Source: an uncultured Bacteroidales bacterium
GTDB taxonomy: Bacteria > Bacteroidota > Bacteroidia > Bacteroidales > P3
Reading direction: 5' to 3'
NCBI GenBank assembly: GCA_947175635.1
Contig: CAMWNM010000007.1
Coordinates: forward strand, 1 to 64,000
DNA length: 64,000 nt
Shown piece after piece: positions 3-47,000 of this stretch. Every line of letters starts with the position of its first letter. Position 1 is the stretch's first letter. Under the pieces are notes generated by a model. The model was not told where the DNA came from. It was given only the letters and a program-made list of their open reading frames with translations, and made no database searches. Both the position numbers and the translations under genes were made by a program.

Positions 3-3000
3 CCCGACTCCCTGCACCTCTCCCTCAGGCATTCAGCCTCCGGAAAAGAACTCGTTATCTCCGCACCCATAACAATCTACTCCGTACCCCAACTATTCTT
101 CGCCGCCGCTACCGGTAATCTCGTACTGGCCGATCTATACCCACGTAAATCAGGCTCTCCGGCGGTGATCCGGATACCCACCGGAGACGATATGTCGGCC
201 AAATGGACCTGTACCGATTATCCGGGGGGGGCGTTGTCAAGCAACGCGTCCGATCCGAACTATTGCTATAGTAACGATATTTTTGGTTGCGGCCGGAACA
301 ACAACGGCACATATAATTATACTTTCGAACACTTATACTTCTCCGGCGGCGGTGAATACACCGCGGTGGCCGGTCCTTCGGGGGTTGTTGCTTTCGGTGA
401 AGTGATTTCGTGTCCCGGCGAAGGACGCTACTTCGCCACCATCAAGACCAGCGACGGCTGTATCGTGCCGACCGACACGGTGATGGTGAAGCCGCCGGTT
501 GTTCCCACCCTCACGATTAACACCGACTGTAACACAGGGCTTGATGTATTGGCTACCGTGGACGGCGACGACGTGCCGACCGAATGGGAATGGATAATCC
601 GTTCCACGCCCCAATCCGAGGATCCTTCGGAGCACAACGGTTACGGTTTCACGCTGAAAGATGGCGAGTCCATAGCGGTATCCCACATATACAGCGAAAT
701 CATGAAAATGATTTTTGTTGACGATGCATTAGGAGTTGGTTTCACTGAAGGCGATTGGGGGGATCTTACACCTACCTATTCGGCCACCAAATCGGGAGCA
801 AGTAGTTCGCTGTCTCTGATTTACAGCAAAGAAGTAATAAATGTCCTAACCTCAATAACTTCAAGTTCAGGCTTGGACTTTACGCAATACCCTTGGTATC
901 CTTTAAGCATGAACGGTCTGCCTTCCACCTTGGATGACGCCACGCGTGTATGGGGGGATGTGGATGCCCTTACCCATGGAGGGGTGTTGGCGGGCAGTTT
1001 TGTTTTTGCCCGTTGCAAAATCAACGGAGAATGGTCGGAATGGGCTGGGCAGCAGTTGGGGATGACGGCCGGATCGGCATTTGATGAGTTTCATTTCGGA
1101 ATTTCCGCTACCCCTTGTATAGGATCGGACAATAAGCTCGCTGATTTTGGTCTTTCTGGTTACTGCGCTCAAACGGATACGGTGGTGAAAGAAGGCTCTC
1201 CCGTACAGTTCAGGATATGGATGGACGGTTTCGTAACGATTGCCAAAATTGAGATTAGCAATGGTATTGAGAATATTAAGACAGAAAAGATAGATGCAAG
1301 TGTGTCAATGAATCTGAGTGCTCACGATATCGTGATTTATTGGCAGTATTATGACAAGACCGCCGGTTTGTGGACTACGTGGGCCTCATCGGATTATTCT
1401 ACTGTTTCGCAAGTGGACGAGAACGGAATAGCTTGGGTAAATTCTCCGATACGTTATATAAATGATGAGACACAGACGGGCCGATACCGTGCCGTTTTTT
1501 CGGTAAACGGTTGTGCGATAGCTTCCACCGATGCCCAGGAAGGCGGATTTAAGGGAGATGAAGGCAAAGATGCGATAATGGGAGAAGAGGATGCCGGGCA
1601 TTACGATGATGAGGTAGAGGTTTCTTTCAAACTCCGTCCCTCGGCTCCGGTTCCGAATCCGACCGAACTTTGTCTTGGCGTTGACCCGCTTACCTTGACA
1701 TGGAACGATATCTTCGTTCCATCTACCATGAAGTTGCAGTATAGACTTGGTACGGGTTCATGGTTGAACATGACCGGTGGGGCCAATGATGATTATATGT
1801 TTGCCGCCGCTGACGGCAAAACCGTGTTTACAGTTTACAAGACCTTTTTCGTGACAGGTTCCTATACTTTCCGCATTGTGGACGAAGGGGTGGAAGGCGA
1901 TGCGAGCAAAGCGGTAACGGTAGAAGACTGTACCTATCCCGCTCCGGAGCCGGATGAAAATTCTTATTGTGAGGATGCTGAAGACGGCGTATTATTGATA
2001 TGGTCGCAAACCTTCAACGCGGCCACCCAGTCGCTCTTATGCTATCCTTCTACCGGTAGCGCTTGGGTGGAGGTTTCAACCATATGTACCTTCACGCCGC
2101 TTACGGTTTCCGGTATGCAGGTCTTTTCCCTTGTGGGGCTGCCGGTTGGTTCCTATACTTTCAAGGTGGTTGACAAAGACGGCTCCTTGGATGGAAAGGT
2201 GAGCACGTCGGTTACCGTCAATGCGGTGCCGACTATTTCGGTAAATGATTTCTCCATCTTATCGGGAACAGACGATGTAACCGATGGCCGGATCTGTCCC
2301 GGTCAGGGTGTTGTATTGGAGGCTGATTATGAAGCGGGGGCTACCTATACATGGTATTATACCGATGGAACGAACGTAGGTGCCGGCGCTTCCCTGGAAT
2401 TTGTCGATGCCATGCCTGCCAATATGGCCGGTACGTTCAATTTCGTTCTGCTGGTGCAGAAAACACAGAACGGCTGTTCTTCGGAATCGGAAGTGGGGCC
2501 GCATAGCCTCATCGTAGATCCGGCGCCGACCCAGCCGGTTATTTCGGTGGCGGCCGCCACCATCTGTGCCGGCACCGACCATACTTTCGAACCTACCGTT
2601 ACGCCGGCAACGGCTACCCCTGACGGTACCTATACTTATACATGGACGGCAGGCGGCTCAACGGTGGGTACAACCAAAAACCTTACCGTAAGCCCCTCGG
2701 CCACCACAACCTATACGTTCAAGGTGGATGTGGCCACCTCCCACGGCTGTACCGATTCCAAATCGGCCAATGTTACCCTTACCGTGAATCCCGCACCTTC
2801 CATCACCGATGCCAAGGTAACGGGCACAACCACGCTCTGCGCCTCCGATGCCCTGTCTCTTACCGCTTCGGCCACCGGTACGGGCCTCAGTTATAAATGG
2901 TATCATGCCGCTTCTTCGGCCATTACCGACGCCACCGCCACGGTAGCCACCACGGCCACTTTCTCCAAGGCCGCCCCGCTTGCCGCCGCTGACGCCGGTA

Positions 3001-6000
3001 CCTATACCGTGCGCATCACCTCCACTTCCGGAAGCGGTGCCACGGCTTGCACCACCACCCACGACGAGGAGGTTACGGTTACCGTGAATCCGTTGCCCGT
3101 CAATCCGGTCATCACACAGCCCTCGGCCGGTCTGACCCTCTGTACGGGCAGCACCGACAAGCTTACCGCCACCGTAAGCGGCAACAACCAGAGCGGTGTA
3201 ACCTATACCTATAAATGGTACACCGGTTCTACGGTGGTGAAAACCTCCACCGACGCCACCAACGGTCTTGTGCTCAATTTCGCTCCGAGCGGCGGGGACG
3301 TATCTACCGGCAGTGCCTTCACGCGCAACTACTACCTTGTTATAGAGTCGGAGGTAACCGCCACCGGCTGTAAAAACACCACGGCCACCGTTACCGGCGT
3401 TGCCGTCAAGGTGGAAGTGTGCGGCGATGATGCCATAGACGGTCCCTATGAAGTATGTCCCACCGAAACCACGCCCAAGGCCTTTACCCTTTCGGTGGCT
3501 TCTCCCGCTCCCAGCTCGGTAACATGGCAGCAAAGCACCGATCAAACCAACTGGACGGCCGCTGTGGGAACCAATTCCTGTAGCGCCACGGTGGGTTCCA
3601 GCTGCACCTTTACGCCCTCCGCCATTCCTGCGGCGGGTAACACCGTGTATTACAGGGCTGTTATCGTACGCAACGGAAGCACTTTCTACAAGGAAACCTC
3701 CTATACCACTTATCCCGAACCGACCAAACCGGTGGTAACGGCCACCGCCGATCCCGCTTCGGTGTGCGCCGGCGGCAGCATCGCCCTCAAGGCTTCCAAT
3801 ACTTCGGCCACGGGGCATACCTATGCCAACTGGAAATGGACGGGCCCCGGCAGCTATTCCTCCACTTCGCAGAATCCCACCCTGAGCAATCTCCAGACTT
3901 CGGCCAGCGGTGAATACAGCGTTACGGTGGAAGCCACTTCGGCCGACGGCTGTAAGGTAACCTCCGATGCGGGCAAGGTAACGGTTACCGTGAATCCGGC
4001 CGCCACCAAGCCCGTCATAACGATTGCGGCCGCCACCGTATGTGCCGGCACCGGTCATACCTTCGAACCTACCGTTACGCCGGCAACGGCTACCCCTGAC
4101 GGTACCTATACTTATACATGGACGGCAGGCGGCTCAACGGTGGGTACAGACAAAGACCTTACCGTCAGCAATCCCACCGCCACTACCACTTATACCTTGA
4201 CGGTGGATGCGGAAACATCCAAGGGCTGTACCGCCTCCGGTTCGGCCAGTGTAACCCTTACCGTGAATCCCGTTCCGGTAATCAACAGCGTTACCCTTAC
4301 CGCGGCCAAGGATAAACTCTGCTCCGACGAAACCCTTACCCTTACCGCCACCGCTTCGGTAAATCCTTCCAATGCCACGCCGTCTTACCGTTGGTACAAG
4401 GGCCGGATAGCCGACACCTCGGCTTCCACCCTTATCTCGGGAGCCACCTCGGCCACCTACACCAAAGCCAGCCCGGCCACCACCGACGGCGGTTACTACA
4501 CCGTGGCGGTTACCTACAAAAACGGTGACTGCTATGCCACGGCCGCCGCCGAGAAGGAAGTTACCGTGTTGCAGAAACCGGCCATCACGGGCGTAACGGT
4601 AAAGGTTGACAACACCCCGATCTGTGCGGGCGGCCAGGCCACCTTTACCGCCACGGTGAATCCGGCCACGGCTTCCGCCGGTACTTATACTTATGAATGG
4701 AAAAAGGGCAGCGCCGTTATTTCCGGCGCCACCGGCACCACCTATGCTGTTACCAATGCGGTTAGTTCGGATGCGGCCACCTATACCTGTACGGTAACGG
4801 CCACCAACGATATCTGTACCGCCTCGGCCAGCGGTTCGGCCGCCTTGGCCGTTACCACGCCGGCCGATCTGAGCAAGATTGCCGTAAGCGGTGCGGTTGC
4901 CGAAAAGTGTATCAGCGATGGCCAGACCACCCTTTCGGTAACCGGCATCACGCAGGGTTCGCCTGCCCAGACCGCCGCCTACCAGTGGTATAAAGACGGT
5001 GCGGCTATCTCGGGGGCCACTTCGGCCACCTATACGGTAGCGGCTGCCCTGGCTTCCAACGGAAAGTACTCCTGCAAGGTAACCGTGGCCGCCACCACCG
5101 CCAACCCCTGCGCGGCGGAAGAAACCACGCCCGAGGTGGAAATGTCTTACAAGATGTGCGGCGACGAACCCCTTACGCCCGGCAACACCCCCGAACAGGA
5201 CAACGATATAGCGCTTGTCTGTCAGAAGGAAAGTTCGAACGCCTGGGTGGAATACACGCCCTTGAGCGAACAAGATGCCGTAACCAAGGTTACTTGGTAT
5301 AAGAGCGCCACCAAACCGGCGCAGGTTTCCACCGCCACAGGCACCCTGATTAAGACGGTAAGCGACCTCGATTGGCCGCTCACGCTGACCAACAAGGAAG
5401 TGTTCGGCAATGAACCGGCCTTTAAGGACTACTATGTATGGGCCAAGGTGGAACGCGGCACCGTGGTGAGCTACACCACCGTTTACCGTTTTGTGAAACT
5501 CGAGAATCCCGTACTGGGGGCCATCTCCATCACCGATGAAGAAAAAGAGGTGTGTGTGAACACTTCCTATACGTTTACCGCTTCAACCACCCTGAGCCCG
5601 GCGCCCACCCATACCGGTATTGCCGCAAGCGCCTCGGGTCCTCAATATTACTGGAGCAAGAACAGCGGTACCGAAACCGCCGGGGTGGCCACCTACCAGG
5701 CTTCCACCCAGACTCCGGTTTCCGGTGATACCTATACGGTGCGTGCCAACGGCCAGTATGTATATACGGTGGGCACCGCCCGTCTTACCTGTGCCGACAC
5801 CACGGCCAAAGCTACGGGTACCATTACCGTAAAGGCCAATCCTACCGTTACCCTGGCCGTTGATCCGGCCGGACCGGTCTGCGCCAACGATATTCCGTCT
5901 TCGGTGAAACTTACCGCTACCGCGGCCAATGGCAACATCACCCAGTGGCAACGCAAGGCCACGGGAGGAAAAACGGTGGCTGAACAAACCATCGCCGCCG

Positions 6001-9000
6001 CCGGTACGGCCACCACCTATACCTTGGCCGCCGCCGACATAGCCGTTCCCGATGCGGGCGGTACGGCGGTAACCAACACCTACACCGTTACGGTAAGCAA
6101 CGGGGTCTGCAATCCTGTATCGGCTTCCCAGAACTTTGTGGTGAACCCGGTTCCCGATTTGGCCGGCGTAACCCTTACCGCCGATGACGAATACTGTAAC
6201 AGTTCGGCCAACACGATTACGGCCGCGGCCAAAACTTCGGCCGGTGCCAACCTTACTTCGGGCGTTACCTACCAGTGGCAGGTAAGCGACAACGGCAGCA
6301 CGGGCTGGACGGATATCGCCGGAGCCACTTCCGCATCCTATCAGTTCCCGGCCAATACCACCGCTTCTTCCAAATACTACCGTTGCGTGGCTACCGCCGG
6401 CACTACCTGTAAGGTAACCAAGGAATCGGATGCCAAGCAGATCACCATTTCGGCCGCTACCGTGGCCGGTACCCTGAGCCGCACGCCTGCGGCGATTTGT
6501 GCCGACGGCACTTCGGTATTCACCTTGAGCGGCAACACGGGCGCGGTGAAGGAATGGACGGTGCGGGTAGGTTCGGGTACGCCTGTTACGATTGCCAATA
6601 CAACCACAACCTATACGCTTGATCCCTCGGATGCCAAGATAGCGGCCTTGCTCAGCACCTCTTCCCGCAAGACCACGCTTACCGTAGGGGTTACGGTGCA
6701 GAGCGGCGGCATTTGTAATGCGGCCAGCGTGAGCAACACCGTAGATGTGTACAAGCCTGTTACGGATCTTAAGCTGGCTACCAACATCGATGCCTGCAAC
6801 CTTTCGGCCAGCAGTGCCAACGTTACTTTCACGCCGGCTCACGAATCGGCGTTCGAGAGCGTGAAATGGGAATACTATGGCGCCACGTCTGCGGTAAACC
6901 TCGACGACGTTACCCCGGCCACCGCTACTTCCACCGCGCTCAACCTGACCCAGTCGACCCACCAGCCCAAGTATCAGGCCGACACCACCTATACCGTCCG
7001 GCTCACAATCACCAACAGTGTTGCCTGCGATGCGGTGGTTTCCGACCCTGTTACCTTCGTGGCCAAGAGGTTGCCTAAGAAACCGGCCGTAACGCCGGCC
7101 ACCACCACTATCTGTGAGGGAAGCGGCTATACCATTACCGCCACCCGTCCGGCTGCCGGCGCGTTGATATGGCAGAAAGCGGTGGGCAACAGCACGCCGG
7201 CCAACATTACGGCCGCCGACGGCACGGTTGCCGTGAACGGCAGAACAGAAACCCTTACCGTTTCCGATGCCGATGCCGGCACCTATTCTTATAAGGTGAT
7301 AGACCGCACCGATTGCGGGGAAGAATCCACCACGGTAACGGTTACCGTGAATGCCGCCTCGCAGGCCGGTACCATCACCGCCGACAACAACGGCGATTTC
7401 TGTTCCGGTACGGCCGTTACGGTGAAGGCGGCGGGCTATTCGCCCTCCACCGCCACGCTTACCTGGCAGGTATGTACCGACAAAGACGACTATGAAGGCA
7501 CGCGCCAGAGCAGCCTTGAAACAACGGGCGCTTCCTATTCCAACAGTGCCTTGGTGGCCGGTACCGTTTATTATATACGTTACCGTGTTCCCGGCACCGC
7601 GCCCTGCGATGATGTGTATTCGGATTGGGTGGAAGTACGTGTGTTCAGCGCGCCTGTCATTTCCGACTTCAAGCCCGATCCCGCCGGCGGCTGTGCGGGC
7701 GATGACGTGGAATTGAGTTTCTCGGCCAAGGAAGGTCTGCGGTATGCCATCTATTCCAATACAAGCAATTCCACTACCGGCGGCACGGAGGTTACTTCCG
7801 GCAGCGTGCCTGCGGCCGGTAAGGTTGCCTATACGGTGAATCCTACCGCCACCACCTATTATTATGTGGTGCTTACCGATCCCGATTTCAGCGGTAGCGG
7901 CAACTGCGGCACTTCCACCTCGCCCGCGGCATCGGTAACCATGGATGCCAAACCTGTGGGCGGTACGCTGACGTTTACCAATACCGACCCTGTGCCTACC
8001 GACAACGGCAAGAAACTTTCGGCCGATGTGGGACAGAATGCCCAGCTGCTTCTCAGCGGTGCCAGCGGCACAGGCAAGACCTTGATGGGCGTAAGTTACA
8101 AAGATGCCGCCGCGCCCGATTACAGTCAGGCGTCGTCGGTGGGGACGATCAACAACACCTATTCGCTCAACCTCAACACCGACCACATGGACAAGACTCT
8201 GCTTTGGGCGGTGGTGACCAACGGAAGCTGTCCGCCGGCTTACAGCGATACGGTGGAAGTAACTGTTACCATGAGTACCACGCCCACTTTGAGTATCGCC
8301 CCGGCAGAGATATGTCAGGGTACCAAAGTGAACATGCAGATTACCATTCCCGACTTTCTGGTATCGGAATTCAACTGGAGTGCCCTCAAATGGGAACGCA
8401 GTGCCGACGACACGACCAACTGGACGGACGTTACATCTTCCGTAACCGTTACCCAGAATACGGGGGTGGCTGTTGATGCAAGCACCCTGACGGCCGGCAA
8501 ATACTTCTACCGCTACCAATACACCATCGGTTCCAGCGATCCGGGCTATTCCAACACGGCACCTGTCACCATCGACGCGCCTAGTGTGGGCGGTACCCTG
8601 GCTGTGGACGCCACGCCGGTCTGCGTGGGCTCCGACCAGCCTGTTGTCAGCCTCAGCGGCCATACCGGCAGCATCTCGGGCTTGAAGTACGGTACCTCGG
8701 CTTCGGCCGTCAATACGGCCCTTACCGCCGGTTCGGATGCCGACAACCTCTATGCCGTGCCCACCAATACCGCCAGTGCGTACTACTATCAGGCTGAAGT
8801 AACCAACGGGGTATGTCCGCCGGCGCTTTCCTCCACCGTTCAAGTGGAAGTGATTGCCAAGCCTGTGGCCGGAAGCCTTGCGGTAAGCGGCAATCCCGTT
8901 TGTATGGATGATGGCACGGCCACCGTTACCTTAAGCGGTCAGTCCGGCTCCATCATTACCTGGAGTTCTTCCGACAGCCAGTCCGGTACCTATACCGATA

Positions 9001-12000
9001 TTTCCAACGACAACAAGACTACCTATGCCGCCGGTCCGCTCCACGACCGAATCTGGATCAAGGCAACGGTAAACACCAATGCCGTATGCGAACCTGTTGA
9101 AACCACACCGGTGGCGGTGAATGTGTACGACTCCCTGAAGGTAACCACCCATCCGTCCAACAAGTCTGTTGTGGGCGAAGGTTCGGTAACCTTTACCGCG
9201 GCGGCTTCCACGGCGGGCATGACCTATACCGACGGCGGCTCTTTCGACCCCGTTTCGGTGGGCAGTTACCAATGGCAGCGCAGCACCGACGACGGGGCTA
9301 CATGGAGCAACCTGAGCAACGGCGGCGACTATTCGGGCGCTACCACGGCCGCCCTTACGGTTGCCAATGCCCAGAATCATGAAGGGGAGTGGTTCCGTTG
9401 CGTGATGACCGACAACCATTGCAACCGTCCGGTACGGAGCAACGGTGCCACGATCCGCGCCATGGCGGCCATGGATCCGGGCACAACCCACAGCAAGACC
9501 GCCGGCATCTGCTACTATAGCGGCGACTCGGCGGTGTACTATGTGAACGATGCCGCCGGCGAGGGTGAGCTTTCCTATCAGGATTGGTATGTAACCCAAG
9601 ACGGCGACAACTGGATTACGCTCGATGAAGCAGGGCTTTCCTCTTCCGACTACCGCATCGTGGCGCCGGGCAACCGCATCGTATTTGCCGATATCAACCT
9701 CCTTACCGAACTGGGTATTGAGCAGATACGTCTTTGCGTAAACGACGACAACACCAAGGGCTGTGATCCGCAAACCTCCATGAGTGTGCCGGTGAACGTA
9801 TGCCAGATGGAGAAACCCGATTACAAGCTCGACGGCAATATCGTGTGCGAGGGCAGCACCGGCACCACGCTTACGTTCAGTCCCGCCGCCGCGGGCCAGA
9901 TAACGGGCCGTACATTCGCTTCCTACTACGCCTTGCCCGATGATCCTGCCGATTTCAAACCTTTCACCACCTCGGTAACGCTTGCCGACGGAAATACGCT
10001 CAATGTAAGCGTGAACGCGGGCACGGGCCTGATCACCATCGCTTCGGCGGTTCCCTATGCGGCCGACGGCATGAAGTTCCGTCTTGAAATCACTTCCGAT
10101 TTCAGCCAGACCGACGCCGACGGCAACACGGTTCCCGATGCCACGGTAGAGGCTACCCTGCGGGTGGATATGCCGGTGAATATCACTTCCCGCGCCATGG
10201 ATACCGTGGTGTGCGAGGGTGCTTCCTTCAAGATGACTACCGGCTATGAAATGGTGAACACCACCATCGATGGCAATAAGGTTACCGCCGAGTGGTATCA
10301 GGCTACCGCCTCCAAGGGTTCGGAAACCTATACCGCCGCTTCGGGCGACGCGGTGCGCGATTTCAATAACGTTACCGCCGCCGAAAACGGCAGATGGTTC
10401 GTGAACCTTTCCACCGAGTATTGCGGTCCGGTATCGGATTCGATAGATGTTTCGGTACGGAAAGTGCCCTCGATTACCGCCGTTACCGACGCCACCGAGT
10501 GCGAAGGGGCCACGGTTACCCTTACCGCTACCGTGGATGCCTCCGCCGCAGGCGATTATTCGTTGCAGTGGCAACGTAAGGTGAACGGGGCATGGGAAGA
10601 TGTTGCCGATGGCAACGGCTATTCCGGTGCCACCACCGGCACCCTCACCATTGCCGGTGTAAAACCTGAACAGGCCGGCCAGTACCGCGTGGTGCTTAGC
10701 TTCAACGTGGCCTCCTGCGAGGGTGGCGGCGATGAGGAAGAAACCACGGTGAAGGTGAACCTCGTGCCTCAGATAACTTTGGACAAGGCACCCTACATCT
10801 CGATGCAGGAAGGCAAGACCCGTCCCGTGGAGGTATTGTACGACGATGCGGCCGCTCTGGGTTACGATCCCGATTATGTAAGCGTGCCGGCCCCCACTTC
10901 CTATGTGTGGATGGTTTCGCCCGCTACGGATCCGGCCGACTTCAAGACCATATCGAACTATGCGGGTCTTGTTCAGGGTAACGACAACGCCAAGACCATC
11001 ACTTTCTATGGGGTCAAGGACTACGACGGCTACTACGCCTACGCGCAGGCCGTGAACAGTTGCGGCACGGCGCGGACCGACTGGGATACCATCCGCATCA
11101 CCGACCAGTTTGAAATAACCAATGTGAAGGTGGATCCCGAAGAGATCTGTCTCGGCGATGATTTCAAGGTAGCGGTAACCACTTCTTTGGAAATGGTGCC
11201 CGAACAGTGCCAGTGGTCTGTTTCCACCGACAAGGGCATCACCTGGACGCCTATCGCTTCCGGCCCTGTTTCCGGTCAGGCGGGTGCGGCCTACAGCATC
11301 ACCTTCCCCAACGAAATGGAAACCGACCTTGTGGTAAGCAACGCCACCCCGGCTATGAACGGCTGGCGCTTCAAGGCCGATCTTACCGACGGAACCGATA
11401 GAGACAATACGCTTACCGGTGCCAACGGACGTCCGGTCATAGAACTTGTCATCAACGATGTTCCGGATGTTTCGGATGCCGAGGTAACGATAACCGACCT
11501 TACCGATCTCACCCTCGACAACGGGCAGGCCAAACCGGGAGACGAAGTGGAGATAACGGTAACCTATCCGGGCAGCGATGCCAATGCCTACGGGTTCTAT
11601 CAGCTGAAGCCCACCGCATGGGAAGACGGGGTTGCCACGGCGTTCGATACCGTGGAACTCAGCCTCGGCGCCGCACCCGCCTACACCCTTACCACGGGTG
11701 CCACGATAGCCGACCACGACTCCACGCTGTACTTTGTACGTGTTTACAACGATTGCGGTTTCAGCGACACGAAGGTGGAACTGTTGCGTATATTCGACAC
11801 GCTGTTGGTGGAATGGATTCCGGACACCCTGTATTTCTATGACGATACCTGGTTGGATCCGCTCAATCCGCCGATAGAAAATCCTGTGCCGGGTCAGATG
11901 GTGGTGGTGCTTTCGCCGGCCGATTCCGCACAGCTGATGGCCCACCTCTTCCTTTGCGAGAATACCTCTATGGGCGTTTTCGATACCACGCGCACGGGCT

Positions 12001-14045
12001 TTATCAACGATGATCTGGGTACGGACGAAGACTATCTGGAATACAGGCAGTCTATCTGGCAGTACCGTACCTCGCCCGACGAGGCATGGGATTTCCTTAC
12101 CCCCGATTTCGTGTACAACTATCTGGGTGGCGGTCAGCTGAACCTGACCGAACACAAGGGTTCCATTTCGATTACGACCGTGTTGTCTGCGATGGACGGC
12201 TGGCAGTTCAGAGCCTTGGGTCTCAACGCCCTGTATGGAGATTCCACGGCGGTGCTTACCCTCCATGTACTGCCCAATCTGGAGAAAGGCGACCTTGTGC
12301 TTACCCCGGATCAATACACTTTCTGCGGTGGCGGTGAGGCGTCTTTTGACCTGAGTTCGAAATCGGGCGCCGATCTTTCCAAACTCAGCATCGAATGGCA
12401 GGGCAAACCCGCCGATGCGGATGATTGGAGCGATATCGACACGATGGATAACCGCACCCTGTTCGATATGGGTCGGGTAGGGGTGGAATACGACGGTTAC
12501 GAGGTGCGTGCCATCGCTTCCGGTGCCTGCGGTGCCGATACGGTTTACGGCATTATCCATGTTACCGTGCCGGTGGCGGCCGATGTTACGGTCAGCGGCG
12601 ATTCGGTTGTTTGCTTCGGAGACGAACAGATCTTTACGGCCACCGGTATCAATGCGGGAGAAAATCCGAGCTACCAGTGGTATGTGGACGGCACGGCCGT
12701 TACGGGTGCCACCGAAGCCACTTTCTCCTTGCAAGGCAGGGAGGCCGGCAGTTATACGGTTTCGGTACGCCTTGAGGCGGATGTTGCCGGGGCCTGCATA
12801 GATCCCGGTGTGGCTACCGCCGATGTTGCCGTTACGATTAATCCGCTACCGTCGGTAACGGCTTCGGTAACGCCCGACACGGTGAAGACCGGTGCCACGG
12901 TAACGCTTACGGCCACCGGCGATGCGGATCTTGCTTACGCCTGGACTCCCGGCGATCTGGTGGTGAATCCTTCTTCCACCACTACGGCCACGGAACCTCT
13001 GGAAGAGGCCGGTCTGCAGTGGTTTGTGATTACGGCCACCAACCAGTTCGGCTGTGTGAGCGCCGATTCGGTTTCGGTGTTTGTGCTTTCCAACTTCCGT
13101 CTGGATTCCATACCGGTAACGATTGTGGCGCCGCCCGTGCTGCCCAATGCCGACGGCACCCTGCCGGGCTTCCCCGAAGATCCGTATGTGGACGGCACGC
13201 CGGTACAGAATCTGGTGTTCTACAACGATACGGCCACCCTTTGGGTATGTCCGGGCAACGAGGCCTATATCACTTTGGCAACCTCCGGCGGTGAACCGAT
13301 GATTTCCTACACTTGGAATATCGCCGATGGCAATGCCAAGCTCTTCGCGCCCGACGGCTGCACGGAAAATGTGGCGTTCCCCACCCATGACTCCATATTC
13401 GGATTCTTCTTCCCCGACCAGTCCACCAGCCGGATCTACTGCCGGATTGTGGATGCCACGGGTGCCGAACTCAATGTGGTGGTGAATGTGTTCTACTTCG
13501 AACCCGAAAACGTGTATATCGAAGTGCGTCCCAAAACCACTTCGGGCCGATACTACGAACAGCAGGCCATCTATTTCCACGCCAAGCCGCAGCGTTATCC
13601 CGAATACCAGTGGGTGAAGGTGGTGGACGGCAGTTCGGAGGTAAGCAGGCCTACCGGCGACCCGATCTTCCCCGCTTCGTTCAAGATGCCTGAGGAAGAG
13701 GCGAACGAAATGTGGCTCACCACGCTCGACAACCACGGCTGCCGCTTGTGGGACAGCACGCACATTCAACTCATAAAGTTGCCCAATGTGATGATAATCA
13801 ACGATCCGAATCATCCTCAGGCAGATGTGATCTTCCCCGACTTCGAGGTGGAAATCACCAATATGTGGGGCTTGAGGGTGAAATCGTTCTCGGATCGGAA
13901 CGGCAACAAGCAGACCAAAGGTTGGGACGGCCGCACGCCCTCGGGTGTGAAAGTTACGGCCGGTACTTACTACTATAGAGTGAAAGTGCCTACCTTAGAC
14001 GGCTTTATGTACGTAAGGGGTGCGGTAACGGTAATCAATAAATAA
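3..14045 (+). CDS. Giant T9SS type B-sorted surface protein with Ig/PKD-like repeats (5' partial)
   Basis: The frame is open from base 3 to the TAA at 14043-14045, giving at least 4680 residues. The GTG at 165 is not the true start: coding sequence continues in frame to the window edge and no signal peptide is visible, so the N-terminus lies upstream. After a mixed N-terminal part of about 700 residues, the protein is a long series of roughly 80-110-residue Thr/Ala/Val/Ser-rich beta modules. Each tends to open with a Cys near a Gly (CAG, CSG) and close with TVTVNP-like strands, as in Ig-like or PKD-like domains. The last 85 residues (WGLRVKSF, KGWDGRTPSG, AGTYYYRV) match the gliding-motility-associated type B sorting domain (TIGR04131/CHU_C), though the opening [10 protein letters not shown] motif is degenerate. 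It is expected to cross the outer membrane through T9SS and act at the cell surface, probably as an adhesin. Its likely partner is the PorP gene 18 bp downstream. The ligand is unknown. Confidence 0.9.
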   Translation, partial: PDSLHLSLRHSASGKELVISAPITIYSVPQLFFAAATGNLVLADLYPRKSGSPAVIRIPTGDDMSAKWTCTDYPGGALSSNASDPNYCYSNDIFGCGRNNNGTYNYTFEHLYFSGGGEYTAVAGPSGVVAFGEVISCPGEGRYFATIKTSDGCIVPTDTVMVKPPVVPTLTINTDCNTGLDVLATVDGDDVPTEWEWIIRSTPQSEDPSEHNGYGFTLKDGESIAVSHIYSEIMKMIFVDDALGVGFTEGDWGDLTPTYSATKSGASSSLSLIYSKEVINVLTSITSSSGLDFTQYPWYPLSMNGLPSTLDDATRVWGDVDALTHGGVLAGSFVFARCKINGEWSEWAGQQLGMTAGSAFDEFHFGISATPCIGSDNKLADFGLSGYCAQTDTVVKEGSPVQFRIWMDGFVTIAKIEISNGIENIKTEKIDASVSMNLSAHDIVIYWQYYDKTAGLWTTWASSDYSTVSQVDENGIAWVNSPIRYINDETQTGRYRAVFSVNGCAIASTDAQEGGFKGDEGKDAIMGEEDAGHYDDEVEVSFKLRPSAPVPNPTELCLGVDPLTLTWNDIFVPSTMKLQYRLGTGSWLNMTGGANDDYMFAAADGKTVFTVYKTFFVTGSYTFRIVDEGVEGDASKAVTVEDCTYPAPEPDENSYCEDAEDGVLLIWSQTFNAATQSLLCYPSTGSAWVEVSTICTFTPLTVSGMQVFSLVGLPVGSYTFKVVDKDGSLDGKVSTSVTVNAVPTISVNDFSILSGTDDVTDGRICPGQGVVLEADYEAGATYTWYYTDGTNVGAGASLEFVDAMPANMAGTFNFVLLVQKTQNGCSSESEVGPHSLIVDPAPTQPVISVAAATICAGTDHTFEPTVTPATATPDGTYTYTWTAGGSTVGTTKNLTVSPSATTTYTFKVDVATSHGCTDSKSANVTLTVNPAPSITDAKVTGTTTLCASDALSLTASATGTGLSYKWYHAASSAITDATATVATTATFSKAAPLAAADAGTYTVRITSTSGSGATACTTTHDEEVTVTVNPLPVNPVITQPSAGLTLCTGSTDKLTATVSGNNQSGVTYTYKWYTGSTVVKTSTDATNGLVLNFAPSGGDVSTGSAFTRNYYLVIESEVTATGCKNTTATVTGVAVKVEVCGDDAIDGPYEVCPTETTPKAFTLSVASPAPSSVTWQQSTDQTNWTAAVGTNSCSATVGSSCTFTPSAIPAAGNTVYYRAVIVRNGSTFYKETSYTTYPEPTKPVVTATADPASVCAGGSIALKASNTSATGHTYANWKWTGPGSYSSTSQNPTLSNLQTSASGEYSVTVEATSADGCKVTSDAGKVTVTVNPAATKPVITIAAATVCAGTGHTFEPTVTPATATPDGTYTYTWTAGGSTVGTDKDLTVSNPTATTTYTLTVDAETSKGCTASGSASVTLTVNPVPVINSVTLTAAKDKLCSDETLTLTATASVNPSNATPSYRWYKGRIADTSASTLISGATSATYTKASPATTDGGYYTVAVTYKNGDCYATAAAEKEVTVLQKPAITGVTVKVDNTPICAGGQATFTATVNPATASAGTYTYEWKKGSAVISGATGTTYAVTNAVSSDAATYTCTVTATNDICTASASGSAALAVTTPADLSKIAVSGAVAEKCISDGQTTLSVTGITQGSPAQTAAYQWYKDGAAISGATSATYTVAAALASNGKYSCKVTVAATTANPCAAEETTPEVEMSYKMCGDEPLTPGNTPEQDNDIALVCQKESSNAWVEYTPLSEQDAVTKVTWYKSATKPAQVSTATGTLIKTVSDLDWPLTLTNKEVFGNEPAFKDYYVWAKVERGTVVSYTTVYRFVKLENPVLGAISITDEEKEVCVNTSYTFTASTTLSPAPTHTGIAASASGPQYYWSKNSGTETAGVATYQASTQTPVSGDTYTVRANGQYVYTVGTARLTCADTTAKATGTITVKANPTVTLAVDPAGPVCANDIPSSVKLTATAANGNITQWQRKATGGKTVAEQTIAAAGTATTYTLAAADIAVPDAGGTAVTNTYTVTVSNGVCNPVSASQNFVVNPVPDLAGVTLTADDEYCNSSANTITAAAKTSAGANLTSGVTYQWQVSDNGSTGWTDIAGATSASYQFPANTTASSKYYRCVATAGTTCKVTKESDAKQITISAATVAGTLSRTPAAICADGTSVFTLSGNTGAVKEWTVRVGSGTPVTIANTTTTYTLDPSDAKIAALLSTSSRKTTLTVGVTVQSGGICNAASVSNTVDVYKPVTDLKLATNIDACNLSASSANVTFTPAHESAFESVKWEYYGATSAVNLDDVTPATATSTALNLTQSTHQPKYQADTTYTVRLTITNSVACDAVVSDPVTFVAKRLPKKPAVTPATTTICEGSGYTITATRPAAGALIWQKAVGNSTPANITAADGTVAVNGRTETLTVSDADAGTYSYKVIDRTDCGEESTTVTVTVNAASQAGTITADNNGDFCSGTAVTVKAAGYSPSTATLTWQVCTDKDDYEGTRQSSLETTGASYSNSALVAGTVYYIRYRVPGTAPCDDVYSDWVEVRVFSAPVISDFKPDPAGGCAGDDVELSFSAKEGLRYAIYSNTSNSTTGGTEVTSGSVPAAGKVAYTVNPTATTYYYVVLTDPDFSGSGNCGTSTSPAASVTMDAKPVGGTLTFTNTDPVPTDNGKKLSADVGQNAQLLLSGASGTGKTLMGVSYKDAAAPDYSQASSVGTINNTYSLNLNTDHMDKTLLWAVVTNGSCPPAYSDTVEVTVTMSTTPTLSIAPAEICQGTKVNMQITIPDFLVSEFNWSALKWERSADDTTNWTDVTSSVTVTQNTGVAVDASTLTAGKYFYRYQYTIGSSDPGYSNTAPVTIDAPSVGGTLAVDATPVCVGSDQPVVSLSGHTGSISGLKYGTSASAVNTALTAGSDADNLYAVPTNTASAYYYQAEVTNGVCPPALSSTVQVEVIAKPVAGSLAVSGNPVCMDDGTATVTLSGQSGSIITWSSSDSQSGTYTDISNDNKTTYAAGPLHDRIWIKATVNTNAVCEPVETTPVAVNVYDSLKVTTHPSNKSVVGEGSVTFTAAASTAGMTYTDGGSFDPVSVGSYQWQRSTDDGATWSNLSNGGDYSGATTAALTVANAQNHEGEWFRCVMTDNHCNRPVRSNGATIRAMAAMDPGTTHSKTAGICYYSGDSAVYYVNDAAGEGELSYQDWYVTQDGDNWITLDEAGLSSSDYRIVAPGNRIVFADINLLTELGIEQIRLCVNDDNTKGCDPQTSMSVPVNVCQMEKPDYKLDGNIVCEGSTGTTLTFSPAAAGQITGRTFASYYALPDDPADFKPFTTSVTLADGNTLNVSVNAGTGLITIASAVPYAADGMKFRLEITSDFSQTDADGNTVPDATVEATLRVDMPVNITSRAMDTVVCEGASFKMTTGYEMVNTTIDGNKVTAEWYQATASKGSETYTAASGDAVRDFNNVTAAENGRWFVNLSTEYCGPVSDSIDVSVRKVPSITAVTDATECEGATVTLTATVDASAAGDYSLQWQRKVNGAWEDVADGNGYSGATTGTLTIAGVKPEQAGQYRVVLSFNVASCEGGGDEEETTVKVNLVPQITLDKAPYISMQEGKTRPVEVLYDDAAALGYDPDYVSVPAPTSYVWMVSPATDPADFKTISNYAGLVQGNDNAKTITFYGVKDYDGYYAYAQAVNSCGTARTDWDTIRITDQFEITNVKVDPEEICLGDDFKVAVTTSLEMVPEQCQWSVSTDKGITWTPIASGPVSGQAGAAYSITFPNEMETDLVVSNATPAMNGWRFKADLTDGTDRDNTLTGANGRPVIELVINDVPDVSDAEVTITDLTDLTLDNGQAKPGDEVEITVTYPGSDANAYGFYQLKPTAWEDGVATAFDTVELSLGAAPAYTLTTGATIADHDSTLYFVRVYNDCGFSDTKVELLRIFDTLLVEWIPDTLYFYDDTWLDPLNPPIENPVPGQMVVVLSPADSAQLMAHLFLCENTSMGVFDTTRTGFINDDLGTDEDYLEYRQSIWQYRTSPDEAWDFLTPDFVYNYLGGGQLNLTEHKGSISITTVLSAMDGWQFRALGLNALYGDSTAVLTLHVLPNLEKGDLVLTPDQYTFCGGGEASFDLSSKSGADLSKLSIEWQGKPADADDWSDIDTMDNRTLFDMGRVGVEYDGYEVRAIASGACGADTVYGIIHVTVPVAADVTVSGDSVVCFGDEQIFTATGINAGENPSYQWYVDGTAVTGATEATFSLQGREAGSYTVSVRLEADVAGACIDPGVATADVAVTINPLPSVTASVTPDTVKTGATVTLTATGDADLAYAWTPGDLVVNPSSTTTATEPLEEAGLQWFVITATNQFGCVSADSVSVFVLSNFRLDSIPVTIVAPPVLPNADGTLPGFPEDPYVDGTPVQNLVFYNDTATLWVCPGNEAYITLATSGGEPMISYTWNIADGNAKLFAPDGCTENVAFPTHDSIFGFFFPDQSTSRIYCRIVDATGAELNVVVNVFYFEPENVYIEVRPKTTSGRYYEQQAIYFHAKPQRYPEYQWVKVVDGSSEVSRPTGDPIFPASFKMPEEEANEMWLTTLDNHGCRLWDSTHIQLIKLPNVMIINDPNHPQADVIFPDFEVEITNMWGLRVKSFSDRNGNKQTKGWDGRTPSGVKVTAGTYYYRVKVPTLDGFMYVRGAVTVINK
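224..231 (+). repeat. G8 homopolymer inside giant adhesin gene
   Basis: Eight consecutive G within the reading frame of the giant surface-protein gene, encoding part of a Pro-Gly-Gly-Ala stretch. A one-base slip would truncate the protein. Phase variation is inference only. Confidence 0.5.
2586..2672 (+). repeat. 87-bp direct repeat, copy 1 (within giant gene)
   Basis: This segment is identical by eye to 4062-4148, and the flanks are also similar. It encodes the Ig-module stretch around PTVTPATATPDGTYTYTWTA. The offset is 1476 bp, exactly 492 codons, so recombination between copies would keep the frame. Confidence 0.9.
4062..4148 (+). repeat. 87-bp direct repeat, copy 2 (within giant gene)
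   Basis: Second copy of the repeat at 2586-2672, in the same reading frame. The identity breaks at the end of the segment (ACCAAAAAC in copy 1, GACAAAGAC in copy 2). This looks like a recent module duplication or gene conversion. Confidence 0.9.
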
Positions 14046-22636: not shown

Positions 22637-22665
22637 GTAACGGCGGTTACGGTAACAATGGTTAC
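22637..22665. promoter_or_regulatory. Palindrome cluster 1: two GTAAC-N4-GTTAC sites
   Basis: GTAAC-ggcg-GTTAC and GTAAC-aatg-GTTAC are separated by one base. The perfect inverted half-sites suggest dimer binding. No regulator is identified. Confidence 0.6.
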
Positions 22666-22739
22666 AGGTTCTTGACAATTCCTTTTTCTTTCTGGTTGAT
22701 AGCTTTTTATATGCGTTTAACACGCATATTTGTTATTTT

Positions 22740-22768
22740 GTAACGGCGGTTACGGTAACGGCGGTTAC
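22740..22768. promoter_or_regulatory. Palindrome cluster 2: two GTAAC-N4-GTTAC sites
   Basis: Two GTAAC-ggcg-GTTAC sites one base apart, preceded by TTATTTTG, which is one mismatch from the -7 box. A TATGCGT/ACGCATA mini-hairpin lies just upstream (about 22708-22727). Confidence 0.6.
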
Positions 22769-22842
22769 AGATTCTTTGTAATCTCTTTTGTATACTGGTT
22801 TATAGTTTTTTATATACGCTTAACGCTCATACGGATTATTTT

Positions 22843-22871
22843 GTAATGGCGGTTACGGTAACAATGGTTAC
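22843..22871. promoter_or_regulatory. Palindrome cluster 3: two sites, first half-site degenerate
   Basis: GTAAT-ggcg-GTTAC then GTAAC-aatg-GTTAC, one base apart, again preceded by TTATTTTG. Confidence 0.6.
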
Positions 22872-22982
22872 GTAATGTTAATTCGCTTGTTTCTTGTTGA
22901 ATATATAATTTTTTAGTAAGGTTTTAATGGCTGGAAACCATCAAATACAGCGTCAGGAGAGTGGAGGTACGTATATTTTTCG

Positions 22983-22990
22983 TAACTTTG
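22983..22990 (+). promoter_or_regulatory. -7 promoter box TAACTTTG for the ATPase gene
   Basis: An exact TAnnTTTG box whose last G is the first base of palindrome cluster 4. The transcription start would fall inside the cluster, a classical repressor position. No clear -33 TTTG is seen. Confidence 0.6.
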
Positions 22991-23033
22991 TAACGGCGGT
23001 TACAGTAATGGCGGTTACGGTAACTCCCGTTAC
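22990..23033. promoter_or_regulatory. Palindrome cluster 4: three sites at the start of transcription
   Basis: Three sites with spacers ggcg, ggcg and tccc (the middle one begins GTAAT), each one base apart. They lie 30 bp before the ATG at 23063. Confidence 0.65.
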
Positions 23034-23062: not shown

Positions 23063-24391
23063 ATGAAATTCTACAACCGGGAAAAAGAATTGGCTGAAAT
23101 GCGGCGCATTCAGCAGTTGGCCTTTACGGATCATTCACATATGACGGTGGTGGTGGGGCGCCGCCGTATCGGAAAGACAAGTCTTATCATGAAATCGACA
23201 GAGGGTACGCCCACGCTCTACTTTTTCGTGAGCCGGCGAAGCGAACAGGATTTGTGTTCGGCTTATGTTGAACAGATTGCGGAGGTGTTGGATATTCATC
23301 TGGGAACGGTGTCCACTTTTTCGGAACTCTTCCTGCTTTTGCTCAAGACATCCGCAACCCGCAACTTCAATCTGGTGATAGACGAATTTCAAGAGTTTTT
23401 CAATATCAATGCTTCCGTATATAGCGACATGCAGAACTATTGGGATCAGTACAAGCAGAAGACCCACATGAACTTGATTCTGAGCGGTTCTATCTATTCA
23501 TTGATATACAAGATATTTCAAAGTTACGAGGAGCCTCTTTTCGGGCGGGTTGACCACTATATGAGACTTTATCCTTTCACCACGGATGTGCTTAAGACAA
23601 TTATGAGCGATTACAATCCGGACTACACCAACGACGACCTTTTGGCCCTCTATACCTTTACCGGCGGTGTTCCCAAGTACATCGAGGCTTTTTGTGACAA
23701 CCATGTGAAACTGTCGGCCAACGACATGATTGAATTCATGGTTCGCGAGAACTCTTCTTTTCTGGAAGAGGGGAAGACGATACTGATTGAGGAATTCGGT
23801 AAGAATTACGGCGTCTATTTCTCCATTCTCAGCGCCATATCGGGCGGGATCAACACCCAGCCGGGAATGGAAGCGGCACTGGGCGAGAAAAGTCTGGGCG
23901 GATATTTGAAACGGCTTATAGAGGATTATGACGTATTGAAACGTTGCCGGCCCATTCTGTCAAAGGAGGGAACGCAAACGGTGCGTTACGAGATCACCGA
24001 CAATTTCCTGTGCTTTTGGTTCAACTATTTCGACCGCTACCGCAGTTTGATGGAATTGCGGAACTACGCCACCTTGCAACAGATAGTGAAAGACAACTAC
24101 ACTACATTTTCGGGGCGTATACTCGAGCGGTATTTCAAACAAAAGATGATGGAAAGCGGCGCATATCGGGATATGGGTTCGTATTGGGAGGCCAAGAAAG
24201 GCAAGGGACAGTGCGAAATCGATATCGTGGCGCTGGGTGTGGAAAAGAATAAGGCGGTGGCGGTAGAGGTGAAGCGCCAGCGGAAGGAGTTCAAGGCTTC
24301 TTTGTTTGCCGACAAGGTGCGGCATCTTAACCAGAAGTTATTGCCGGGCTACGAAATAGAGCAGAAATGTTTGTCGCTGGAAGATATGTAA
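23063..24391 (+). CDS. AAA ATPase (ATPase_2) with DUF234-like PD-(D/E)XK C-terminal domain
   Basis: The product has 442 residues. The Walker A motif GRRRIGKTS is at 32-40, with the NREKEL opening typical of the archaeal-type ATPase family (Pfam ATPase_2). Walker B (LVIDEF) is near 103-108. A winged-helix-like middle region runs to about 330. The C-terminal EIDIVA plus AVEVKRQ (about 385-403) has the E-x-D and E-x-K spacing of PD-(D/E)XK nucleases, as in DUF234. It is cytoplasmic. The biological role of this widespread Bacteroidota and archaeal family is not settled; I cannot assign a substrate. It stands alone behind an unusual operator-rich leader and is followed by a terminator, so it forms its own transcription unit. 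It may be an acquired module, judging by the AT-rich upstream DNA. Confidence 0.85.
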   Translation: MKFYNREKELAEMRRIQQLAFTDHSHMTVVVGRRRIGKTSLIMKSTEGTPTLYFFVSRRSEQDLCSAYVEQIAEVLDIHLGTVSTFSELFLLLLKTSATRNFNLVIDEFQEFFNINASVYSDMQNYWDQYKQKTHMNLILSGSIYSLIYKIFQSYEEPLFGRVDHYMRLYPFTTDVLKTIMSDYNPDYTNDDLLALYTFTGGVPKYIEAFCDNHVKLSANDMIEFMVRENSSFLEEGKTILIEEFGKNYGVYFSILSAISGGINTQPGMEAALGEKSLGGYLKRLIEDYDVLKRCRPILSKEGTQTVRYEITDNFLCFWFNYFDRYRSLMELRNYATLQQIVKDNYTTFSGRILERYFKQKMMESGAYRDMGSYWEAKKGKGQCEIDIVALGVEKNKAVAVEVKRQRKEFKASLFADKVRHLNQKLLPGYEIEQKCLSLEDM

Positions 24392-44038: not shown

Positions 44039-47000
44039 ATGGAATTAAAATTTGGCAAGATGTTGAATACGGTTTTGCGGTGCATCATTGACCGTGCCGG
44101 GAAATACGGTGGCGGGAGCCTTTGGAAAACGGTTCGGGCCGTTTTGCTGCCGGGCTTGGGCTGTCTGTTGCTCTGTGGCGGACTTTCGGCGCAGGAGCCG
44201 CCCCGTCTGTTCTACAGAATTTCTTCTCCGGCGGCGGGCGGTAAGGCCGGCGGCGGTATCGGCAGCAATTCCTTTGCGAACGGGCAGGTGTTCTGTAAGT
44301 ACGAACACGGGTACACGGTGGATGTGTGGTTGGAGGCAGCGGCGGAGGATTGCCGCTGGACGGTGGGACCGACCGGAAAGGTGTCGGTGACGAATCCCAG
44401 AGGCCCGTACAACGATACGGTTACCATCGATATTTCAAACACTTCGAATACAGAGATAACGAACGTAACGATTTCGGTAATTGAAGGAAGCAACGCACCT
44501 GTGCTGATGTCGGTGGTCATTCCCCGGATCGCCGCCGCACCGGGGGCCATCATCATAGACCCGCTCGAACTGCTGGACGGGGAATCGTATTGCGCGAATC
44601 TCTCTTATACGGTGGATGTACCGGAAGATCCCAACTATACAAAGGAAAAGAACAACTATGATCCGAACGGTACCTATCCCTCGGCTACGCTGAAGTATAA
44701 TTTCAGCCTAGGTACGACCGAAAGCGCTGTGCCGCCTCTCAGTTCAAGAGGCTACAGCGACGATCCGGCAAGCATGTACCATTGGGAGCAGATTGTCGGG
44801 CCGGCCGCCAAATACTGGGTGGTGCGCGCCAAAACCTGCGAAGCCGGTAACTCGGAAGCGGTAAAGCCCGCTTCGTTGGCCATAGACAACGTGATTCCGG
44901 AAAACCTCACCGATGAAAGTCTTTCCGTGATCCCCATCCGCTATGCGGGCGAGGAATGGGAGGAGTCGGATGAAAACGCCTGCACTTGGTATTCATCCGC
45001 CTTCAACAAAAGCGAAACCGGTGCCGGAAACGCAGTGGGCGGACTCAACGACGGCGAGACAGAAAACGGCTATGTGTACTTGCAGGCGATGCCCTATCAA
45101 CCGGATGATATCAGTTTCCGGCATTACCGGTACATTTGGAACTACGATGAGGATGCCTTGGAACCGGCTACCGACAAAATGAACACCGCAACTTACAAAG
45201 AGGCGGGTTTCGGTGCTGACAGCGCGCGCATCTGTTTCAAGGTGAAAAGCCGTCCCGAGGGAACGGATCCCGTAATCCGGGTATCCTACCACATGGTTTG
45301 CGACAAATGCAACGAGCGTGCCCAGAAACAAGGACGTTCCATTGTATTCGAATCGGCGGAAAGCGCGGTTTTGAAACTGAACCGTGTGGATTCTTTGGAA
45401 GATGCCGTGGTAAAGGGTTCCTATACGCCTTCCATCCTCGATAAGGGCGAACGGGTGGAATCGATAGATGGCTCTCCCTTGTTGCTTTGCGGTAATACCG
45501 AATACGATCTTTGCGGTGAAGTGGATGGGGAAAGCCCCATTACGGGCTTTATGTGGAAAGCACTGAACGGCGCGGACTGGGAACAGAGCGTTGGCGGCGG
45601 CGATATGGGCGGTGGAATGTGGCCGGCCGCACCGCGTGCCAGACAAAGCCTTTGCGATACCTACGTAACTCCTGAAATCGCGCAAACCGACACCCATATG
45701 GGCGATACGGTAAACCTTCTGGTATATCCCCGCAACCAATGCTTCAGCAACGGCCGTACCACCGACCGCAACGCACAGGAGGTGAAAGTATATGTACGGA
45801 GTACCCCGCAGGCCCCCATCGTTATCGATCCTGTTTCCGGTCAGTCTTACAAAGGCAACAATCTGGAGGCTATGGGCGGCGGCTCCCCCACCATACCGAT
45901 GGGCGGACTTTCTTTTCCGCTTCTGCTGTGCAACAACAGCGGTCTGGGTTCCTCTTCCGCCGGTGCCAGTCAGAGTTTGCTGCTATACACGCCCAACAAT
46001 ACGTTGCGTGCCTCGGACGAAAGTTTTGAAATCAAGTTTTACGAAGATATTTCCAACCCATCCGTCATCCAGGCCCTTAGGGCTTCCTATAGTTTTGAAC
46101 GCAACAATCCCGACAAGGAGCTTGGCGACACCACACGTTGGACATTCCGCTTCAAGATTCAGGATCATGAGGTTTTGGCCGACCAGAAACAGATAGTGGT
46201 GGGGATCGCCGCCAAGAACACTTGCGGTCCCGGTACGATGGCTTTCTGGGCTATCAATATCATCGATACGCTTTCGGTGGAGGGTGATGTGATAGATAAC
46301 GGGTTGATTACAAGTGGTGATACGGTTGTTCATTCTCTTTGTGAGGGAGAAGAGCGGATTTACAGCAACATAAGCAGCGCCGAGCCCTTGTTCGTTACGG
46401 ATGCGGCCGATCCCGACCGCAATACGGACGTGGTGCAATACAGTTGGAAGATTCCCGGGACATGGCGTTTTGACAATCCCCGGTTGGATTCCGTTTCCGT
46501 ACCCGATACCAGGGTCTGGCTGGGTGAGGAGAAAGGTGCGGTGCGGCTTGCCTTGAAAAACCGCTGTGGCGTGGGGACGTACCGCCGCGGAGACTCCCTC
46601 GATGTGAATGCCTATACGCGGGTGGACATCAAGGTGGTGGACGGGCTTTTGGCCACCAGTGCCGCGCTGAATCCGAAAGTGACGGCAGACAAGGCGGAAA
46701 TAGACAGGAATGGGTTTTTGCTTCTGCCCTGTCAGGGTTCGCAAATGATGTACGCCATTGACACTTTTGAACGTACAGATGCTTATCGTTGGGAATTTCC
46801 TTCTGACTGGCAGGTGGTTACCGATGTGCCCAATCAATACAACGGCGAGGCGACGGCCGATCCGGACTATCCCAACCGGGCGATCACCGATCACCGGAAA
46901 CTGGGTTTCAGGAACGATATGCGCGTGCGGGTGAAAGTGGGGGCCGATACAGGACAGATCTATGTGGTGGGTGCCAAGGCGGCTTGTGCGTGGACCTTTG

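Follow-up and report, generated by a model that had tools for sequence, protein, structure and literature searches.

Proposed operator and promoter organization upstream of the ATPase-nuclease gene

The question raised by this locus is which protein, if any, reads the tandem palindromes found ahead of a single ATPase-nuclease gene of an uncultured Bacteroidales bacterium, and with what effect on that gene. The window (i.e., the whole 64,000-nucleotide stretch analysed) comes from contig C7, one of the 71 contigs of a genome of 2.01 Mb. Nine palindromes of the form GTAAY-N4-GTTAC, each 14 bp long, were present on the forward strand at 22637-23033, upstream of the ATPase_2-DUF234 gene, in clusters of 2, 2, 2 and 3 (starts at 22637 and 22652, at 22740 and 22755, at 22843 and 22858, and at 22990, 23005 and 23020). 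Seven of the nine were exact GTAAC-N4-GTTAC while those at 22843 and 23005 began with GTAAT. Within each cluster the gap between palindromes was one base, which resulted in a period of 15 bp, and clusters 1 to 3 were spaced exactly 103 bp apart. Cluster 1 (22637-22665) was GTAACGGCGGTTAC g GTAACAATGGTTAC, cluster 2 (22740-22768) was GTAACGGCGGTTAC g GTAACGGCGGTTAC and cluster 3 (22843-22871) was GTAATGGCGGTTAC g GTAACAATGGTTAC, the region from 22637 to 22871 consisting of two tandem 103-bp units (i.e., array plus a spacer of approximately 74 bp) and then the third array. The promoter-proximal cluster 4 (22990-23033), which is the presumed operator over the transcription start, contained three palindromes (GTAACGGCGGTTAC a GTAATGGCGGTTAC g GTAACTCCCGTTAC). 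Its first base was also the final base of a Bacteroidota-type -7 box, TAACTTTG (TAnnTTTG; 22983-22990, forward strand), and its start was 73 bp upstream of the ATG of the ATPase gene at 23063. Just before clusters 2 and 3, TTATTTTG was noted at 22733-22740 and 22836-22843. Every detail of the layout stated in an earlier sequence-only reading of the window was found to be as described.

Matches to the palindrome with no more than one mismatch numbered 11 in the 64 kb compared with 1.34 +/- 1.09 in shuffled sequences, none of 100 shuffles reaching 11. Genome-wide, the paired palindrome occurred at this locus only and a reversed control pattern gave 0 matches, while single GTAAY-N4-RTTAC sites outside the window array numbered 11. 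A regulon based on such sites elsewhere in the genome was considered and rejected, the inspected sites being within long open frames (C1 and C27), within an open frame (C14) or in the array of a second ATPase gene (C38). The clusters of the window lie on a decayed tandem duplication (79% identity between copies, 139 bp), and the number of sites is an outlier that was made by local duplication, the usual array consisting of two palindromes. The window also holds very long open frames at 165-14045 (4626 aa) and 44039-53596 (3185 aa), which probably encode surface proteins.

Predicted features of the ATPase-nuclease

The gene at 23063-24391 (forward strand) encodes a protein of 442 aa with an ATPase_2 domain (PF01637, E=4e-17) and a DUF234 domain (PF03008, E=1.1e-9), and residues 2-414 were matched by the PADLOC model of PDC-S27 (E=1.9e-45). 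In an alignment of homologues, nearly every position of the Walker A motif GRRRIGKT (residues 32-39; 23156-23179) was invariant and a Walker B-type DEF was conserved alongside it, as required of an ATPase_2 protein with both Walker motifs. The AlphaFold model of the protein was confident (pLDDT 91.9) and placed, in order, the ATPase domain, a helix-turn-helix (helices 266-273 and 279-288; 23858-23926), wing strands (292-295 and 308-311), helices 314-324 and 327-331 and, from residue 368, a nuclease-like domain with an alpha/beta fold (368-437). A DNA-binding domain, formed by the helix-turn-helix and wing strands of the model, is therefore present in the gene product. Within the C-terminal domain, a PD-(D/E)XK-like core (residues 368-405; 24164-24277) contained E385, I386, D387 and K404 as invariant residues, in keeping with what is expected of a DUF234 or PD-(D/E)XK-like domain.

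The protein has the composition of PDC-S27, which is described as a single-gene candidate recognized by genomic embedding and as the fusion of an ATPase with a PD-(D/E)XK member; thousands of these were counted across bacteria and archaea, and most PDC candidates still await validation (PMC12988326). The window gene is thus a candidate anti-phage gene only, its activity being without experimental support. Homologues were sporadically distributed (21 of 91 genomes of the family and 58 of 393 genomes of the order), and no second close copy was found in the genome of the window. The only match in a plasmid search was to one Bacteroides plasmid (68.6% over 16% of the query). A search of IMG/VR gave one close homologue, which had an array, the remaining matches being distant. 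The array of this homologue (56% identity) is at L195:70-98, on a contig of which the viral nature is unverified.

Occurrence of arrays upstream of homologous genes

A degenerate form of the paired pattern was detected in 11 of 150 related genomes and the reversed control in none. The pairs found by pattern were mostly directly ahead of a gene starting M(K/R)F(Y/F)(N/D)RE, i.e., a gene of the same ATPase family. In a survey based on the protein, which comprised 28 places from the same taxonomic family and 80 loci found by scanning genome contigs, nearly all loci had a tandem palindrome array (5-N4-5-N1-5-N4-5) close upstream of the start codon, with half-sites that differed between loci.

The frequency of arrays was determined with a score that is indifferent to the actual sequence (at least 12 of 15 complementary positions within 105 bp upstream of the start codon). 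Arrays were scored for 64 of 92 homologues in a first sample, the loci of which were chosen by protein similarity only (70%), as opposed to 16 of 3167 flank windows (0.5%) and 26 of 1840 dinucleotide shuffles, and for 40 of 60 homologues in a second sample, drawn from the 393 genomes of the order (67%), as opposed to 7 of 586 flank windows (1.2%); 8 of 1806 windows inside genes of the second sample reached the array score. A grid of spacings picked 4 and 1, the maxima at 2/3 and 3/2 being register aliases. In the merged non-redundant set, which includes approximately ten loci fetched by pattern and not by protein, 127 of 154 proteins had an array by consensus score, with two palindromes in 98 cases, three in 25 and four in 4. 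Approximately a fifth of members were without a clear array by score, and many of these showed imperfect or differently spaced dyads (e.g., TAAAY with a 16-bp period). Arrays were also noted ahead of members in records of Thiothrix, Thiomargarita, Arcobacter, Sulfurovum, Aminicenantes and Omnitrophota.

Dyad sites at the gene's own promoter were thus conserved across homologues, as an operator requires. As to whether arrays always precede DUF234 ATPase genes, a check proposed in the sequence-only reading, most but not all members had a clear array, and a few arrays stand without an ATPase gene (see below). These few exceptions notwithstanding, the finding named beforehand as fatal to the idea, i.e., arrays missing from homologous loci and present in unrelated places, was not obtained. 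Five distant ATPase relatives (L197, L199, L201, L043 and L044; 27-30% identity), inspected by eye only, seemingly had inverted repeats of another type at their promoters.

Position of arrays relative to the promoter

The box TANNTTTG was found in 93 of the 127 homologous upstream regions. Arrays began on the last base of this box in 29 regions and 5-9 bp past it in 38, and the median distance from array end to ATG was 15 bp. The array therefore overlies the promoter or start site, and a protein bound to it there would stand in the way of initiation. The proposal that the window contains an amplified promoter-operator unit is supported by these results, since arrays of the same architecture precede most homologues and do so at the -7 box.

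Half-site diversity and covariation with the winged helix

While spacing was constant, half-sites varied among homologues and included GTAAC, GAAAC, TTAAT, GTTAC, TTTAC, GTATT, TTACA and others. Such differences were also evident between paralogues within one genome (GTTAC and GAAAC in G767, TTTAC and TTAAT in G085, GTATT and TTAAY in G044, GTAAT and GAAAC in G862, GTAAT and TTAAT in G751). Exact GTAAC is thus one of many cognate variants, a point absent from the sequence-only account, as is the usual number of two palindromes per array.

Among the 127 non-redundant members, half-site bases varied with residues 266, 276, 277, 280, 281 and 283 of the helix-turn-helix. Tyr at residue 281 was associated with A3 in 87 of 87 members and Phe in 12 of 12 (99 of 99 together), Gln at this residue with T3 in 16 of 17, and His with either base; in a close relative with His281 (L017), GTAAC and GTTAC were present half-and-half. 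At residue 283, Thr was associated with A2 (24 of 26) and Lys with T2 (30 of 30), while Arg266 was associated with G1 in 74 of 77 members. Contacts of Arg with G, and of Gln with the A opposite T3, are classical ones. For the whole protein, the best 13-residue window of mutual information was 271-284, which overlaps helices 266-273 and 279-288.

The covariation is due in part to shared ancestry, and phylogeny was only partly controlled. In a comparison of 63 disjoint nearest pairs, 12 of which had a half-site change, the strongest association was that of column S277 (P=1.7e-5), and the range 261-290 accounted for 6 of the 15 highest-ranking columns (P=1.7e-4). On a tree built without residues 245-335, co-changes above random branch placement were noted for R266/G1 (2 of 2 residue changes), T283/A2 (3) and Q281/T3 (2), i.e., only two or three independent co-changes per residue; those for A/R280 were not above chance in this tree test, and one control column gave none. 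When pairs were compared with control for distance, the highest-ranking window was 318-333, directly past the wing, and not the recognition helix. Thus, specificity varied with the DNA-binding domain, as a protein that reads its own sites would require, while controls for ancestry, which leave few independent events, place the signal in the winged-helix region and the helices that follow it and do not allow its assignment to the recognition helix alone.

Probable identity of the protein that binds the array

The observed arrays, with their fixed architecture, position, family-wide presence and covariation, are best explained as cognate operators of the genes they precede. Thus, we infer, with a probability of roughly three in four, that the ATPase-nuclease (PDC-S27) binds the array and represses its own promoter, although no binding or expression data are available. 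Half-site changes track the protein's own DNA-reading region, which makes it most likely that the gene is shut off by its own product.

Dedicated regulators are the usual readers of operators, and those known from defence loci, such as the WYL proteins BrxR and CapW (PMC9122601, PMC9122589) and RptR (PMC12255303), are proteins in their own right. Control of the ATPase gene by some other host regulator, whether local or global, bound to the array was nevertheless judged to be unlikely. No conserved neighbour or partner regulator was found among the 154 loci, since no neighbour was common to more than 6 of them and those common to up to 6 encoded mainly further ATPases or ABC proteins; a dedicated regulator next to the gene is therefore unlikely. 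One global regulator is unlikely as well, because paralogues of one genome have different half-sites and such a protein cannot read GTAAC, GAAAC and TTAAT arrays within one genome. A separate regulator is further disfavoured by the variation of half-site bases with the ATPase's own winged helix and by the retention of arrays in members of other phyla (L093, L099, L106, L112 and L115). The sequence-only reading had left the choice between a dimeric regulator and the ATPase-nuclease itself undecided; occurrence ahead of most homologues, position, lack of a conserved neighbour, paralogue differences and winged-helix covariation together favour the latter, with binding still an inference.

Under self-repression, half-sites would be bound by the winged helix-turn-helix that lies between the ATPase domain and the DUF234 (PD-(D/E)XK-like) nuclease domain, and adjacent dimers would occupy the palindromes, with their period of 15 bp, across the -7 box and start site and so block transcription. 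The constancy of this period is in keeping with side-by-side packing of dimers, although this too is inference. Such a block may keep a potentially harmful ATPase-nuclease at a low level until repression is relieved by some signal, inferred and perhaps phage infection. In the genome of the window, the promoter-operator unit would have been duplicated to give the four clusters and nine sites. Since half-sites and DNA-reading region drift together, paralogues in one cell would have separate operators.

A bolder version, which we regard as a long shot, is that the ATPase-nuclease is parked on the array as an inactive oligomer and that stripping of the protein from these sites (e.g., by phage takeover or competing DNA) both induces the gene and licenses the nuclease, the promoter acting as sensor of a one-gene immune system. 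If this were true, the paralogue-specific code would keep several one-gene systems per cell mutually independent.

Unlikely readings of arrays as RNA hairpins or ends of a mobile element

Hairpins in the 5' leader of the mRNA, with a role in attenuation or mRNA stability or as nuclease substrate, might be envisaged, since arrays coincide with the presumed start site or follow it, and a stem of 5 bp closed by a loop of 4 nt could arise from each palindrome. Several results make this very improbable. Mismatched stem pairs read on the sense strand were G-U in 78 cases and C-A in 66 (P=0.36), and neither strand was favoured, whereas RNA pairing would be expected to show a strand bias towards G-U. 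The dyads are symmetric in both strands, as would be expected of protein sites in DNA. In addition, the first half-site is probably not transcribed in the 29 of 93 promoters in which the array begins on the last base of the -7 box (start inferred from established Bacteroidota promoters), and hairpins have no need of the fixed 1-bp spacing between palindromes.

Paired palindromes without an ATPase gene were noted at L009:1501-1529 (G075) and at L013:1501-1529 and L014:1501-1529 (G038 and G047), the latter two at the same place in two species. L009 and L008, which has the ATPase gene, have in common a promoter-array segment of approximately 124 bp (91% identity), after which L009 enters a repeated element. 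No ATPase remnants of note were detected beside the solo arrays by tblastn. An array of the same class was also present 3' of the gene, 44-86 bp past the stop codon, in 6 of 149 genes (L210:4397, L211:1859 and L081:3874, plus L031, L071 and L083), which gives an array at both ends, and in L031 a promoter-like sequence was also repeated. In another case (L090:461-489), an array precedes an ABC-type ATPase gene (631-1977) that is itself directly ahead of a family member with its own array; this extra array points either to a small regulon or to a scar. One genome has a family member in two copies (L215:2498-3847 and 7288-8637), which are apparently near-identical and lie approximately 4.8 kb from each other, with short repeats around them. 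Solo, 3' and extra arrays may be remnants left by the loss or duplication of a gene, may form a small regulon or may point to mobility, and remain undecided.

Solo and 3' arrays, taken as scars or second ends, together with the sporadic distribution of the gene and the stacked promoter-array units of the window, could suggest that the ATPase-nuclease is the mobility protein of a mobile element of one gene, for which arrays serve as ends or as target sites. Little credence is given to this explanation because the 3' array is missing from 143 of 149 genes, contrary to what is expected of an element with arrays at both ends, because the array is always at the promoter and because a domain search of the window protein revealed no recombinase or transposase domain. 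Nor was a clean empty site around the window gene found in 12 congeners, although synteny was poor and the UPRT neighbourhood was rearranged in all of them. Neutral tandem repetition or chance palindromes, for which only the local duplication visible in the window can be cited, are already contradicted by the enrichment in two samples (approximately 70% versus 0.5-1.4%), the compensatory change of both half-sites and the fixed spacing.

Arrays of a second ATPase_2 family

A second ATPase_2 gene of the same genome (C38:14376-15497; L249 477-1601), which is without a DUF234 or nuclease domain, has three 14-bp tandem copies of GTAATTTGCGTTAC just before its start codon (C38:14310-14351). Among relatives of this ATPase with full flanks (n=24), 5-N3-5-N1 arrays with a 14-bp period were present in 50% as opposed to 1% of flank windows, and these arrays were over or upstream of the -7 box. 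Thus, the principle is probably wider than DUF234 proteins.

Relation to known systems and significance

The closest solved structures by both sequence and fold were the archaeal Walker-type ATPases 2fna (SSO1545) and 2qen (PABY2304), the chains of which (approximately 350 aa) end before the nuclease domain. We know of no DNA site for either protein. Foldseek also matched archaeal Orc1/Cdc6 initiators (1fnn, 1w5t, 2qby and 2v1u), in which an AAA+ ATPase is likewise fused to a winged helix, but this similarity is weak (TM approximately 0.36-0.45) and the type of site is different. Other distant fold matches included STAND proteins.

Controller (C) proteins of restriction-modification systems bind tandem palindromic operators at their own promoters and tune expression of the nuclease. 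These are small dedicated regulators, however, whereas in the window protein DNA reader and nuclease are one. AbiEi, the winged-helix antitoxin of a phage-defence locus, represses its own promoter through binding to inverted repeats there (PMC3985639). The likeness to the window gene, which is only a candidate for defence and for which binding is inferred, is that of a winged-helix protein of a phage-defence locus on inverted repeats of its own promoter; the difference is that AbiEi is the antitoxin of a two-gene system and has two 11-bp repeats of one inverted pair, as opposed to a single gene with tandem 14-bp palindromes of 15-bp period. For PDC-S27 itself, no operator array is described in the accessible portion of the report (PMC12988326). 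A search of openly licensed papers only, from which DUF234 is poorly retrievable by name, gave no description of a tandem operator array with diversifying half-sites that is cognate to a single-gene ATPase-nuclease. The sequence-only reading knew of no described system of this kind; self-repression by a winged-helix protein at inverted repeats is known in phage-defence loci from AbiEi. Thus, the kind of control is known while a code-like array on an ATPase-nuclease appears to be undescribed.

No function has been established for the ATPase_2-DUF234 proteins, a group that is widespread among bacteria and archaea alike. The present results provide a handle on this family, namely a cognate DNA site that can be predicted for almost all members, a testable residue-to-base code and a route to control. 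Specificity that can be read off a sequence would permit prediction of orthogonal units with self-regulation in uncultured Bacteroidota, and the same design, with a 14-bp period, in a second ATPase_2 family means that the principle may extend to a wider class. If these proteins are defence effectors, the operator would explain how several nuclease-bearing systems exist in one cell without cross-talk and would show where induction should be sought.
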